The notes below the pieces were generated by a model. That model was given only the letters and a program-made list of their open reading frames with translations, searched no databases and was not told the DNA's origin. From positions 1 through 52,864 of the forward strand of contig JAFGRD010000002.1 in NCBI GenBank assembly GCA_016935315.1: DNA of 52,864 bases. Reading direction: 5' to 3'. How positions within the stretch are numbered: position 1 is the stretch's first letter; the number at the start of each line of letters is the position of its first letter. The stretch comes from Pirellulales bacterium. GTDB taxonomy: Bacteria > Planctomycetota > Planctomycetia > Pirellulales > Thermoguttaceae. Both the position numbers and the translations under genes were made by a program. Shown one piece after another: positions 1,425 through 51,043 of this stretch.

Positions 1425-1674
1425 CCGCAAGTTCCAGGCGTTGTCCGATGTGGACCTCCGCACAACAGCGCGTCGAGGACGCGTCGGCTTCCTCGAGCGT
1501 CCCTTGTGGAATGAAAAGCGTCCGCGCCGCTGCCCTTCCGGCGAGGGGAACCTTGACGGCAACGACAAGCCGATTCAAACTGGAATCTAGCGGTCGACAG
1601 CGCTTGTGGCAATCCCCCCGGCGCGGGCCGACAGGCCCTTGGGGCTCGCGAGAGAATACGTTGGGCATTGCATT

Positions 1675-1807
1675 GATGGGTGACTTCTGATCGGGAAAGC
1701 ACCCCCGAAGTCACAGGCATCCTCCGTCAGGGCGTGATGCAAGAGCACGGCTGTTGCGCGTCCGTACACTTTCATACATGTTCAACTTGTTCCTTTTCGA
1801 GTCCTTG
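1675..1807 (-). repeat. Structured intergenic repeat, family 1, copy A
   Basis: This is a two-hairpin element of about 130 nt, read on the minus strand. A conserved 5' block (AAGGACTCGAAAAGGAACAA...) is followed by hairpin 1 at 1775-1737. That hairpin has a 14-bp stem with two mismatches and the loop ACGCGCAACAG. Hairpin 2 at 1714-1680 has a perfect 8-bp stem, GTGACTTC/GAAGTCAC. Copy B at 50804-50932 aligns over the whole length, including CTTTCCCGATCAGAAG. The element lies between the divergent apbE and zinc-ribbon genes, 250 nt upstream of the apbE start. It could be an RNA or a mobile REP-like element. Confidence 0.75.
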
Positions 1808-1848
1808 GCCCGCAGAAGCCGGCAACACAAGAACCCCATACGATTCTT

Positions 1849-14357: not shown

Positions 14358-14448
14358 AACAGATATCTCCTCCCATGGTGTTGTGTGATTCCGGGAATGA
14401 CCTGGTGCCCTGGAGGCGGGAATCCCCCGAATCGTGCAAGTCGATTTG

Positions 14449-14479
14449 TTGACGTTTGCACAGTCCATGTGCGAGGGCG
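14449..14479 (+). repeat. 31-nt dispersed repeat (family 3), copy 1
   Basis: The stretch starts TTGACGTTTGCAC and ends ATGTGCGAGGGCG. It matches the minus strand of 24268-24298 with only two differences. GCAC and GTGC can form a small stem around a 7-nt loop. It lies in the gap between the GlmU-like gene and the acyl carrier gene. TTGACG resembles a -35 box, but no -10 follows at the right distance in either copy. Confidence 0.65.
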
Positions 14480-14543
14480 ACCAACGGGAGCCCGCTGTTT
14501 CCGGCTTCCCGTCGCTCGGCCTGGATCCTTCGCAGTGCCGACA

Positions 14544-15851
14544 TCAATGAGCGAATTTCCCCGCGGCCAGCAAGCGGCGGCCTCGTTTGACGGCCTCGCT
14601 CCGCACCGGCTTCGTCATGTTGAAAACCTCGTTCCACATGGCCTCTTGGGCCTCGGTCCACTCGCGTCCGCGGCGGCCCATGGCCGTTCTGGCCGTTTCG
14701 TAGAGCTTGCCCTTGCCGAACCCCTTGGTAACCACGCCTTCGAGGAACCAGGCAAAGGAAGGAATATGTTTCGGCAGCGGCTTGCCGGTGGCCGCGATCA
14801 GGGCCATCGCCCCAATGTAGGCGCCCGTGTTGAACAACGTGCCGATCGACGTTTTGGCGTGGTCGCCGATCAGGGCGCCGACCTTCGTCGAGCCGGTGTC
14901 GACCGGCTGTTTGCCGTCGAGCGTGACCGAGACGGTGGAGTAGTCGTTCTTCAAGTCGCTGTTGGTCGTGAGGGCCCCGAGGTTGACCCACTCGCCCACG
15001 TAGGCGTGGCCCAGAAAGCCGTCGTGATACTTGTTCGAGTAGCCGTGGATGATCGACTCTTCCACCTCGCCGCCGATGCGGCACATCGGCCCGATCGAAT
15101 TGCCTTCGCGGCACTTGGCGCCCAGCAGGATCGATTTCTTGCCGACGTAGCAGGGGCCTTCCACGCGGGTGAAGGGATGGATTTCCACGTCCTCGTCGAT
15201 GTAGATGGGGCCCGCGGCCGCGTCGAGCACGACCATCGGGTGGATCAGTGCGCCGGGGGCCACGTAGACGTCTTTCTTGCTGCCGCGGATCGCGACGGGC
15301 TCTTCGACGGTGCCCTCGACGCCACACCTGCCGGCAGCGGCAAAGTCCGCGACCAGTTGCTCCGGATTGGCCAGGATCAGGTCCCAGGTGTAACTCCACA
15401 CCGGCACGCTCCCCTCGGCCGAAGGAAGCAGCCCCTTGGCCGAGTCGAGCAGCGCGTCGATCGATTCCGTGTTGAGTTTCTCCAGGTCGGCCCGGGCAAT
15501 CTGGGCGTAGAGCACTTCGCCGTCGGCGTCGACGGCCACCTGGCTGGGTCCGGCCGGCTCGACGTCGAAACCGGCCGCTTTCACCCGGGCGTCGACCACC
15601 AGCAGGTCGTCGCCCCGCAGGCTCGCCGGGTCGTTGACCGACCGGCTGGTGCTCTCGCGATAGGCGTCGGCCATGTAGGGCGGCACGAAATAGGCCACCT
15701 CGAACGTCTCGAGTCGGTCGAACAACCGATCGAGCAGCTTGTCCAGCAGCGACGTCATGCCGCAGCGCAACTCCCAGACCGGCCGGCTCAGCGCCAAGGG
15801 ATAGAAATGGAAGCGTTTCTCGGTCAGGCGGTCGACCAGGATCAATCGCAT
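14544..15851 (-). CDS. GlmU-like sugar nucleotidyltransferase / acyltransferase
   Basis: The 435-residue protein has an N-terminal domain beginning MRLILVDRLTEKRFHFYPLAL and containing SRPVWELRCG, the pattern of the alternative bacterial GlmU-like family. A C-terminal left-handed beta-helix (about 210-380) includes IHPFTRVEGPCYVG, GYSNKYHDGFLGHAYVGEW and NLGALTTNSDLKNDYSTV. The helix resembles the acetyl-/uridyltransferase part of GlmU. With nagB 44 nt upstream on the same strand, a role in amino-sugar nucleotide supply is likely. The ATG at 15851 follows GAGGAA; an upstream in-frame ATG would overlap nagB. Confidence 0.85.
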   Translation of the reverse strand: MRLILVDRLTEKRFHFYPLALSRPVWELRCGMTSLLDKLLDRLFDRLETFEVAYFVPPYMADAYRESTSRSVNDPASLRGDDLLVVDARVKAAGFDVEPAGPSQVAVDADGEVLYAQIARADLEKLNTESIDALLDSAKGLLPSAEGSVPVWSYTWDLILANPEQLVADFAAAGRCGVEGTVEEPVAIRGSKKDVYVAPGALIHPMVVLDAAAGPIYIDEDVEIHPFTRVEGPCYVGKKSILLGAKCREGNSIGPMCRIGGEVEESIIHGYSNKYHDGFLGHAYVGEWVNLGALTTNSDLKNDYSTVSVTLDGKQPVDTGSTKVGALIGDHAKTSIGTLFNTGAYIGAMALIAATGKPLPKHIPSFAWFLEGVVTKGFGKGKLYETARTAMGRRGREWTEAQEAMWNEVFNMTKPVRSEAVKRGRRLLAAGKFAH

Positions 15852-24267: not shown

Positions 24268-24298
24268 CGCCCTCGCACATTGACCGTGCAAACGTCAA
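24268..24298 (-). repeat. 31-nt dispersed repeat (family 3), copy 2
   Basis: Read on the minus strand it starts TTGACGTTTGCAC and matches 14449-14479 in 29 of 31 positions. It lies 41 nt upstream of the lipoprotein start, in the same direction. A TTGAC...GTCAA inverted repeat is present here but imperfect in the other copy. Confidence 0.65.
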
Positions 24299-24418
24299 TA
24301 ATGCGAAAACCTGTTTTCCAGGCTAATCGCGCGGGTCCCTGCATGTCAAGCGCCGAAGGGGGGCAGATGCCGCCGGGAGTCCGCTGGTCTCTTGGGGCAA
24401 GGTCGCCGTGCCGCGCGC

Positions 24419-26600: not shown

Positions 26601-26629
26601 GCTTGATTTGTTTCGGCCGGCTTGGTACT

Positions 26630-26659
26630 AAGGACTCGCAAAAGAACAAGTTGGACATA
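26630..26659 (+). repeat. Structured repeat family 1, 5' block only (copy C)
   Basis: AAGGACTCGCAAAAGAACAA, then GTTGGACATAC, matches the first 30 nt of copies A and B. The hairpins that follow in A and B are missing. It begins 30 nt after the EEP gene stop. Confidence 0.65.
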
Positions 26660-38644: not shown

Positions 38645-38673
38645 GAATGCCCAACTTGTTCTTTTCGAATCCT
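38645..38673 (-). repeat. Structured repeat family 1, 5' block only (copy D)
   Basis: Directly at the stop codon of the PEP-CTERM gene the minus strand reads AGGATTCGAAAAGAACAAG, then TTGGGCATTC, close to copies A-C. No family-1 hairpin follows. Confidence 0.55.
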
Positions 38674-39767
38674 CAGCGCCCGCGGCGATTTCGCCAGCCA
38701 TAGAGGGCCAGCGCGAGAGCAGCCGCGGTGGCCAGCACCAGCGTGGAGGGTTCGGGGATGGTCGCGATCCATCCGCTGGGCTCCCCCCGGTAACTGCCTG
38801 TGCCGGCGATCGTCGTGCCGTCGTCGGAGACGGCGTACGTGGCGTTCAAGCTCCAGAGGGTCATGTCGACCCCATGATCAGCCAGCACGTCGCGGAGGAG
38901 GCGCGAGCCGTGTGCGGCGTCCCAAACAAAAACACTCTGCTCACCGCCCAACTCCCCCATCCATCCCACGACCACCGAACCGTCGGCCGAGACGCCCCAG
39001 GCCTCGCTCTGCGTGCCTTCCGGCATGCCCAGGCCGACCATCACGTCGTTCTGCCAGCGGAACGCCTCGGAGTTGCCTGCGGAGGTCTCGGCGGAGCCCA
39101 CGATCACCGAGCCGTCGGCCGAGACGTCCAGTGCCTGGCTGCCGAGGCCTCCCAGCGCCCCCAGCCCGACCATGGTGCCGGCTTCCCAGCGGAACGCCTC
39201 CATGATGCTCGACGTGTTCAAGCAGTAGCCGACGACGACCGCCCCGTCGTTCGAGACGGCGACCCCCAGCCCTTCAGGACCGCCCAGCGTGCCGAGATCG
39301 GTCATCACGCCGTTTTCCCAACGGAAGGGACGGGTATTGCCCGCGGCAGTTCCGCTGAAACCCGCAACCACCGAGCCGTCGGCCGAGACGTCCACGGCCA
39401 GGCTTTCGTCGCCACCCAGCGTACCCAGACTTGTCAGCGTGTCGTTCTCCCAGCGGAACGCCCCTTCGTTACTAGGGGTGTTCGCGCTAAGTCCGACCAC
39501 CACCGAGCCATCGGCCGAAACGCCATAGGCGAAGCTCTCCGAGATTCCCGAAATGCCCAGGTGACCGGCGCGGCCGTTTTCCCAGCGCACCGCGCGCATG
39601 TGGCTGCCGTTTTCCGGTTGGTGGCCGCCCACGACCACCTTTCCATCGGCCGAAGTGCTGAAGGGAAGGAGGACGGGGATGGGCGAGAGCGACCAATCGG
39701 CTCTCGACGCGGCGGCCGCCCCGAATAGTCCCACGACGCCCAGCAGACCGGCGAGCAACGTTCTCAT
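38673..39767 (-). CDS. PEP-CTERM protein with HAF repeats
   Basis: The 364-residue secreted protein has a signal peptide (MRTLLAGLLGVVGLFGAAAA). About six repeats of about 45-50 residues follow, with the pattern VSADGSVVVG...AFRWENG...LGTLGG, known as extracellular HAF repeats. The C-terminus is a PEP-CTERM sorting signal: IPEPSTLVLATAA, a hydrophobic helix and RNRRGR. Such proteins are processed by exosortase and end on the surface or in matrix polysaccharide. The ATG at 39767 gives the proper signal; the upstream frame is not protein-like. No exosortase gene is in the window. Confidence 0.9.
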   Translation of the reverse strand: MRTLLAGLLGVVGLFGAAAASRADWSLSPIPVLLPFSTSADGKVVVGGHQPENGSHMRAVRWENGRAGHLGISGISESFAYGVSADGSVVVGLSANTPSNEGAFRWENDTLTSLGTLGGDESLAVDVSADGSVVAGFSGTAAGNTRPFRWENGVMTDLGTLGGPEGLGVAVSNDGAVVVGYCLNTSSIMEAFRWEAGTMVGLGALGGLGSQALDVSADGSVIVGSAETSAGNSEAFRWQNDVMVGLGMPEGTQSEAWGVSADGSVVVGWMGELGGEQSVFVWDAAHGSRLLRDVLADHGVDMTLWSLNATYAVSDDGTTIAGTGSYRGEPSGWIATIPEPSTLVLATAAALALALYGWRNRRGR

Positions 39768-39857: not shown

Positions 39858-39890
39858 CCAAGGAACGCGTTAGGCTCGAAAAACAACGCC

Positions 39891-39929
39891 ATGAAAGAGC
39901 CAAGCCGCTGCGCGCCTTGGCTCTTTCAT
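39891..39929 (-). terminator. 39-nt hairpin (family 1, copy F), possible terminator
   Basis: A perfect 14-bp stem (ATGAAAGAGCCAAG / CTTGGCTCTTTCAT) surrounds the 11-nt loop GCGCGCAGCGG on the minus strand. The loop differs by one base from copy B (ACGCGCAGCGG). It follows the radical SAM gene stop by 54 nt. TTTTT comes seven bases after the stem on the minus strand, so it could terminate that gene. The loop match argues that it is also a member of the structured repeat family. Confidence 0.65.
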
Positions 39930-39983
39930 ATAGGTCTAAGTGCCGTTTTTCGGAAAGTGCAGGACTCCTTGGCAGCGGTACGG

Positions 39984-50792: not shown

Positions 50793-50803
50793 CAGATTGA
50801 CGT

Positions 50804-50932
50804 AAGGACTCGCAAGAGAATAGGTTGGACATACATGAACGTGCAAGGACGCGCAGCGGCCTTGCTCCTTCATCACCCGTTGACTGAAGATGCCTTTGAG
50901 TTTCCTGGTTCTTTCCCGATCAGAAGGCACCC
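50804..50932 (+). repeat. Structured intergenic repeat, family 1, copy B
   Basis: Same order as copy A at 1675-1807: the 5' block AAGGACTCGCAAGAGAA..., hairpin 1 at 50835-50873 (14-bp stem with two mismatches, loop ACGCGCAGCGG), then a conserved tail with TTCTTTCCCGATCAGAAGGC. TGCCTT/AAGGCA can close a second hairpin. The stem differs from copies A and F by paired changes. TTGACG at 50797 stands just before it and could be a -35 for this element, but the matching -10 is poor. It lies between the AOR gene and a 34-residue membrane protein. Confidence 0.75.
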
Positions 50933-50938
50933 AAATCG

Positions 50939-51043
50939 ATGCCCGATCCCGATTACGCCGGCGGCCCGCCGGGTGGGTTCCACCTGATTGTCGGATTGGC
51001 GCTGATCTTCTTCCTCGCGCTGATCCTCAAGTCGTGTCTGTGA
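50939..51043 (+). CDS. Small single-pass membrane protein, 34 residues
   Basis: The short frame starts MPDPDYAGGPPGGFHL and ends in a hydrophobic helix (about 14-30) followed by KSCL. Its composition (acidic/Gly-Pro head, a clean membrane helix, a short basic end) looks like a real small protein. No strong Shine-Dalgarno sequence was seen. It ends 16 bases before the SRPBCC gene, same strand, so the two may be cotranscribed. The function is unknown. Confidence 0.5.
   Translation: MPDPDYAGGPPGGFHLIVGLALIFFLALILKSCL

Follow-up and report, generated by a model that had tools for sequence, protein, structure and literature searches.

The hairpins found at three places in the window (the whole 52,864-nt stretch of Pirellulales DNA analysed here) are parts of two families of short mobile elements. 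The overall explanation that we favour, with a probability of about 0.88, is that two MITE families share a hairpin module, are moved in trans and decay by deletion. In kind the elements are ordinary MITEs; their unusual feature is that one hairpin pair occurs in two MITE families with unrelated ends. We call B-family the one that includes copies A and B of the window, and F-family the one that includes copy F. The sequence-only reading had offered a choice among a small RNA, a leader element and a non-autonomous mobile hairpin; the last is right, because the elements have inverted ends, duplications, no long reading frame and many copies and because the F-family has a matching autonomous IS in other genomes, whereas no evidence was found for an RNA. 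An element would consist of an inverted end of 31–33 bp, a hairpin, a family-specific centre of about 85 bp, a second hairpin and the other inverted end.

The two-hairpin element of the sequence-only reading is sound in its hairpins and copies but is merely a fragment of this larger repeat element, and the limits given for it (1675-1807 for copy A, 50804-50932 for copy B) were too short. The window holds the following features:

50802-50945, plus strand: copy B, a one-ended B-family element with left inverted end, left hairpin and part of the centre; right limit approximate
50802-50832, plus strand: the inverted end on the left of copy B, which departs from the consensus used at 4 of 31 positions
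50835-50873, plus strand: left hairpin of copy B, with an 11-nt loop and a stem in which 12 of 14 positions pair
1638-1808, minus strand: copy A, with both inverted ends and a CTTGG duplication at 1638-1642 and 1804-1808; right hairpin deleted
1737-1775, minus strand: left hairpin of copy A, with 12 of the 14 stem positions paired and pair 12 changed on both sides
39880-39962, minus strand: copy F, a one-ended F-family element with inverted end at 39931-39962 and hairpin at 39891-39929; inner limit approximate
26628-26658, plus strand: solitary B-family inverted end, 31 bp identical to the consensus used
38647-38677, minus strand: a B-family inverted end standing alone and degenerate, with mismatches at 11 of 31 positions

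The 39-nt hairpin is present in all three copies, and the three 11-nt loops match the window sequence as quoted. The 14-bp stem ascribed to all of them is complete in copy F (14/14 pairs) but not in copies A and B, which have mismatches at pairs 4 (A-G) and 8 (T-T) and at pairs 6 (C-C) and 8 (T-T), respectively. The paired changes reported at stem positions 11-13 are indeed there: A-T, C-G and G-C in A; A-T, A-T and G-C in B; and C-G, A-T and A-T in F. A second hairpin had been placed within 50804-50932, which fails as a family feature, the best stem varying from copy to copy among 20 full B-family copies; the family's true second hairpin lies near the opposite end and is absent from both A and B. 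Copy B is also without the right end, homology stopping at about 50945. Copy F, previously taken for a partial copy of the A/B element, is instead a member of another family, the ends of which differ. No known RNA family had been recognized, and this is borne out by Rfam, with no match in the window and a best score among three loci of 23.3 bits against a cut-off of 62. The degenerate B-family end at 38647-38677 abuts the TGA stop of a reading frame, whose C-terminus appears to be like that of a PEP-CTERM protein.

The genome from which the window comes (7,102,429 bases, 7.1 Mb, in 172 contigs) has at least 40 places that match copy B with an E value of 5.2e-23 or better, among the 40 of 157 candidates that were scored. 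Alignment of the first 30 loci gave the inverted ends as CTNAGGACTCGCAAAAGAACAAGTTGGRCAT and its reverse complement; with up to three mismatches, this pattern matches the genome 96 times and its reversed control 0 times. Terminal inverted repeats of about 31 bp bound 21 paired elements, all 231-234 bp and 16 of them exactly 232 bp long, and laxer pairing of ends adds shorter, internally deleted elements. Inside each end stands a hairpin, the left one of 39 nt (that of the sequence-only reading) and the right one of 41 nt. The flanks show a 5-bp target duplication, CTNAG, with agreement at 100 of 165 positions against 83.7 after shuffling (p = 0.0002, left uncorrected although the register was picked after other registers and several widths). 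This short, near-palindromic consensus is duplicated exactly in 7 of the 33 candidate pairs, a few of which are doubtful pairings of unlike length, with the boundary set at GACTC; earlier tests at other boundaries detected only the inner 3 bp, and the final boundaries were moved after the flanks had been read. The longest closed ATG frame in the consensus of the 232-bp element has 36 codons. The B-family is thus a MITE, with no transposase found for it among the sequences searched, and it would be moved by a transposase that duplicates CTNAG.

Candidates for an autonomous B-family element or its mover were rejected. In the genome, only one pair of ends was found facing each other over a distance of about 4 kb (C123), and it encloses ordinary genes, and no B-family ends lie beside the genome's single matches to PF01609 and PF01797, PF13359 having 0 matches. 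Two matches to the B-family end with 3 mismatches in five other genomes fall within apparent coding sequence and look like chance; one such chance match inside a reading frame, L213 (G033, contig C151), is in a frame that presumably resembles the HNH region of Cas9. The exact 27 bases of the end are absent from the genome contig collection searched, and the degenerate pattern has 0 matches in the viral contigs. Separately, the genome's only DDE_Tnp_1 match (L157, G000 C89:818-1621) lies in what by eye is apparently a complete IS with ends AGACCTGAAACAAGCG.

For the F-family, a transposase partner can be named. Its ends, CTGCACTTTCTGAAAAAACGGCACTTAGGCCTA, give 50 pattern matches against 0 for controls, and in its own genome it comprises two full copies of 233 bp and two further 58-bp palindromes made of both ends alone; the longest closed ATG frame in the consensus has 43 codons. 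Across six F-family elements and five from the Pirellulales MAG Zod_Metabat.975, 51 of the 77 positions in the 7-bp flanks agree, where shuffling gives 22.5 (0 of 5000 shuffles), with 4 of 11 exact; a first 7-bp test at other boundaries had given p = 0.11, and the boundaries were later moved after flank reading. In a viral contig (L185), F-family ends with 0 and 3 mismatches in 22 bp bound a 1495-bp insertion with the duplication AAACAAT, so that the duplication length, 7 bp, is alike for the F-family and this IS. The insertion encodes a 449-aa transposase that scores 275.6 bits against the NCBIfam IS701 model NF049999 (cut-off 170) and matches Pfam DDE_5. The end as it appears in L185 occurs also in L176, and a transposase relative of 72-81% identity, with a probable frameshift, stands beside the same end in Zod_Metabat.975. 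Among six genomes searched with the transposase protein, G307, G017 and G033 match, and 1 of 72,556 plasmid records, from a Planctomyces, holds a relative at 45%. The window's own genome (G000) gives no match at E 1e-5. Several of its contigs stop about 80-130 bases within an F-family element, as would be expected from an assembler meeting near-identical copies; since the 172-contig assembly breaks inside these elements, an own IS701-type copy may be missing from it. That the outer 22 bp of the ends flank a transposase gene of the IS701 type, with 7 bp duplicated, marks the F-family, to judge from sequence, as an IS701-type MITE. Its movement would be in trans, by an IS701-type DDE transposase that recognizes the outer end CTGCACTTTCTGAAAAAACGGC and duplicates 7 bp.

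Elements of two F-family ends alone, 58 bp long and with duplications, exist in two genomes (L120 and L126 here, with 5/7 and 6/7 positions duplicated, and L181 in Zod_Metabat.975, with AGGAAAA duplicated 7/7), which suggests that the hairpins are probably dispensable for movement, although these elements could have lost their centres after insertion. By eye and in one fold, the run of A6, a CGGCAC stem and T6 in all three looks like a two-way intrinsic terminator.

Further copies in relatives are found for the F-family in other Planctomycetota MAGs, whereas the B-family consensus has only one weak match, to the hairpin, among 59 relatives. The F-family consensus matches 7 of 296 genomes of the order, its own included, with two candidates scored per genome; G097 and G033 share the end, and in the four other matching genomes the likeness is limited to pieces of 25-34 nt. 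A 21-base segment of the end recurs exactly in one viral contig, L185, and in 17 stretches of the genome contig collection, all from Planctomycetota MAGs (13 from Zod_Metabat.975, 2 from Zod_Metabat.223, 1 from Zod_Metabat.1184 and 1 from a Planctomycetota bin). The stretches of Zod_Metabat.223 and Zod_Metabat.1184 end like those of G033 and G097, so each pair probably represents one and the same MAG. Besides the ends-only L181, Zod_Metabat.975 contains four full relatives, 230-231 bp in length (L168, L172, L173 and L183).

The outer 22-bp end, the 7-bp duplication and the size of the F-family all fit a MITE of the L185 IS, as among IS701-family IS and IS-derived MITEs. The two have the ends alone in common, hairpins and centre not being recognized in the IS by eye. 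QMITE2 of Coxiella is also alike, with inverted ends of 23-29 bp, duplications of 7-9 bp and a stable predicted transcript structure (PMC10969869); the part of that paper available to us makes no mention of a hairpin pair common to two families whose ends are unrelated. In titles and abstract openings from the open literature on planctomycete MITEs, MITE hairpins, IS701 MITEs and Pirellulales repeats, to which most subscription papers do not belong, we found no description of the B- or F-family.

We compared the parts of the elements through three consensuses (B-family, F-family and Zod_Metabat.975) assembled by eye. Homology between the B-family and F-family ends found no support (p = 0.73), and their centres are not significantly alike (p = 0.08), whereas both hairpins are alike, the left in 34 of 39 bases (p = 0.001, the floor of the test). 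Between the F-family and Zod_Metabat.975, by contrast, the ends are identical (34/34), the centres are not significantly alike (p = 0.17), and the left hairpins share 30 of 39 bases, the hairpins differing in sequence with pairing kept. Hairpin likeness therefore follows the host and not the end. The differences run in the same direction as base composition (65% G+C in the window, 54% in eleven Zod_Metabat.975 loci), which may account for part of this likeness. The left and right hairpins of one family share their top part (p = 0.002 for the F-family, 0.001 for Zod_Metabat.975 and 0.062 for the B-family), and the consensuses from both genomes have the loop sequence GYGCAGC in common. We propose that the hairpins are a cargo module common to both families within their own genome, the stems of which would stay paired while their sequence shifts between hosts towards the host's base composition. 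A bolder version, which we hold to be rather unlikely, has the twin hairpin as a host-adapted module passed between unrelated MITE families in one genome, with the GCAG-apex hairpin recognized by some host factor, be it a protein that binds hairpins, a nuclease or an enzyme of RNA processing. If true, the twin hairpin would be a survival part common to several parasites of one host.

Covariation, taken in the sequence-only reading as the sign of a selected structure, does exceed that of shuffled and slid controls. Among 39 left hairpins from three groups (B-family, F-family and Zod_Metabat.975), two-sided change occurs at 8 of 15 pairs, 91.3% of cells pair against 83.9% after shuffling, and covariation scores 0.242, where the shuffled control gives 0.112 and the slid control no more than 0.092. 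For 43 right hairpins of the own genome, the corresponding values are 7 of 17 pairs, 90.7% against 80.8%, and 0.268 against 0.100 and at most 0.084, although the count of two-sided pairs is not exceptional, 118 of 500 shuffles reaching 7. These alignments used 39 of 45 (left) and 43 of 47 (right) distinct rows from 66 left and 56 right hairpins retrieved; rows with more than 6 or more than 8 mismatches to the family consensus, one Zod_Metabat.975 deletion copy, and rows with inserts or unrelated 3′ arms were dropped and copy F was added by hand, a filtering that favours paired rows. When only the 20 full B-family copies are considered, two-sided cells number 1 in the left hairpin against a shuffled mean of 1.0 and 15 in the right hairpin against 5.9, and the inverted ends themselves show a weak excess, 15 against 9.5 (p = 0.034). 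The pair that varies most in the right hairpin requires 7 changes on a tree with few supported branches, and these changes cluster by subfamily. With few events, a poorly resolved tree, no left-hairpin signal, an excess in the ends and the pattern of copy F described next, the covariation is not a safe proof of selection.

Paired stem changes could instead come from template switching during DNA replication, a quasi-palindrome correction in which a mutated arm rewrites the other and no structure is selected; such switching has been described as a cause of compensatory changes in RNA genes (PMC8794818, in the part seen). Relative to the F-family consensus, copy F has a T to G change on the 3′ arm and a two-base patch, GA to CC, on the 5′ arm; the patch also mends the G-G mismatch at pair 10 that 16 of 18 F-family left hairpins keep. 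L032 has the 3′-arm change alone, as expected of an intermediate, and in Zod_Metabat.975 one arm is changed in L179 and both in L177. Copy F accordingly looks like a product of templated palindrome correction, and so is no proof of selection on RNA. Yet the T-T mismatch of the B-family left hairpin persists uncorrected in 20 of 26 B-family alignment rows, L039 and L072 lose the G-G mismatch through a single change on the other arm, which makes patches unnecessary, the GYGCAGC loop is common to both genomes' consensuses, and the relationships among copies are presumed. As the whole cause of the paired changes, we consider template switching plausible, at somewhat less than even odds. A selected structured RNA, either a small RNA or a 3′-UTR element that happens to be repeated, is improbable. 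It would account for the covariation above controls, for the called stop codons within 3 nt of an edge in 10 of 37 B-family copies, and for a left stem that varies little among full copies (7.0%, against 15.8% for the ends and 18.8% for the centre), a low value that may be biased, as the fetch query covered the left half and not the right. It would not account for inverted ends with target duplications, Rfam has no family that scores as high as its cut-off, no promoter-like or terminator-like site turned up when 401 bases around copy B were scanned with consensus patterns, and copies break at many positions within the hairpin; on present evidence this is not a new RNA family. Very improbable is movement as REP/REPIN-type palindromes by a Y1 (RAYT) transposase. 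REPINs resemble the present elements in having two inverted hairpin units, in being intergenic and in their compensatory stem changes, which are reported to be common (PMC3116915, in the part seen), and the own genome has one Y1 domain. They differ in that the B- and F-families have long inverted ends and target duplications, and the F-family ends belong to a DDE IS, which contradicts the REPIN reading for that family. No B- or F-family end lies in the 1948 bases around the Y1 gene, itself at a contig start, and by eye no GTAG or CGTC tag stands at the hairpin foot. REPs, in Planctomycetes as elsewhere, and Y1 transposases flanked by inverted repeats are described in PMC3733652 and, as far as its accessible part goes, differ from the B- and F-family elements. 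The only RAYT-like Y1 match in the genome (L158, G000 C97:248-448) lies at the end of a contig, within a long frame that has tandem PYGRGSG-like repeats. Within the preferred reading of two decaying MITE families, the likeliest cause of the kept pairing would be weak selection on the hairpin, as DNA or RNA, together with templated arm-to-arm correction.

Finally, the state of the copies is consistent with decay by deletion. By a loose rule that may count a few ends twice, about 122 B-family ends divide into 44 in near-full copies, 4 cut by contig limits and 74 that stop early (60 of these within 97 nt), and 44 F-family ends into 4 near-full, 4 contig-cut and 36 that stop early (30 of these within 84 nt); the breaks are thus concentrated in the end and the first hairpin. 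A hairpin-cutting nuclease could account for this clustering. Old copies would decay by deletions that stop mostly there, which would have left copies B and F one-ended and the inverted end at 26628 solitary. Across the 20 full B-family copies, the right stem diverges by 16.8%, and the right loop by 5.4%. No gene called by a home-made gene caller spans any of 37 B-family copies, 8 of the 10 stop codons at edges overlap the edge, and the neighbouring genes have mixed orientations; because the target TNA can itself be a stop codon, such edge stops are partly expected. A third family of short repeats, whose ends resemble TATTGACGTTTGCACNGTCAATG and which has a CGACCAACGGGAGCCCG hairpin, occurs in the window at 14447-14549 (plus strand) and 24278-24300 (minus strand) and also at L124, L129, L047, L054, L076 and L077; by eye it is fused to broken B- or F-family copies in several loci.

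A puzzling ‘unknown RNA’ thereby becomes a mobile element, and one of its two families gains a named transposase partner. Stem covariation, which usually marks a functional RNA, is seen here inside transposons, with templated palindrome correction as a real alternative to selection, and screens for structured RNAs should first check their candidates for inverted ends and target duplications. In this genome, the same hairpins are found in two MITE families that differ in their duplications and have unrelated ends, which offers a natural test of what such hairpins contribute to an element.
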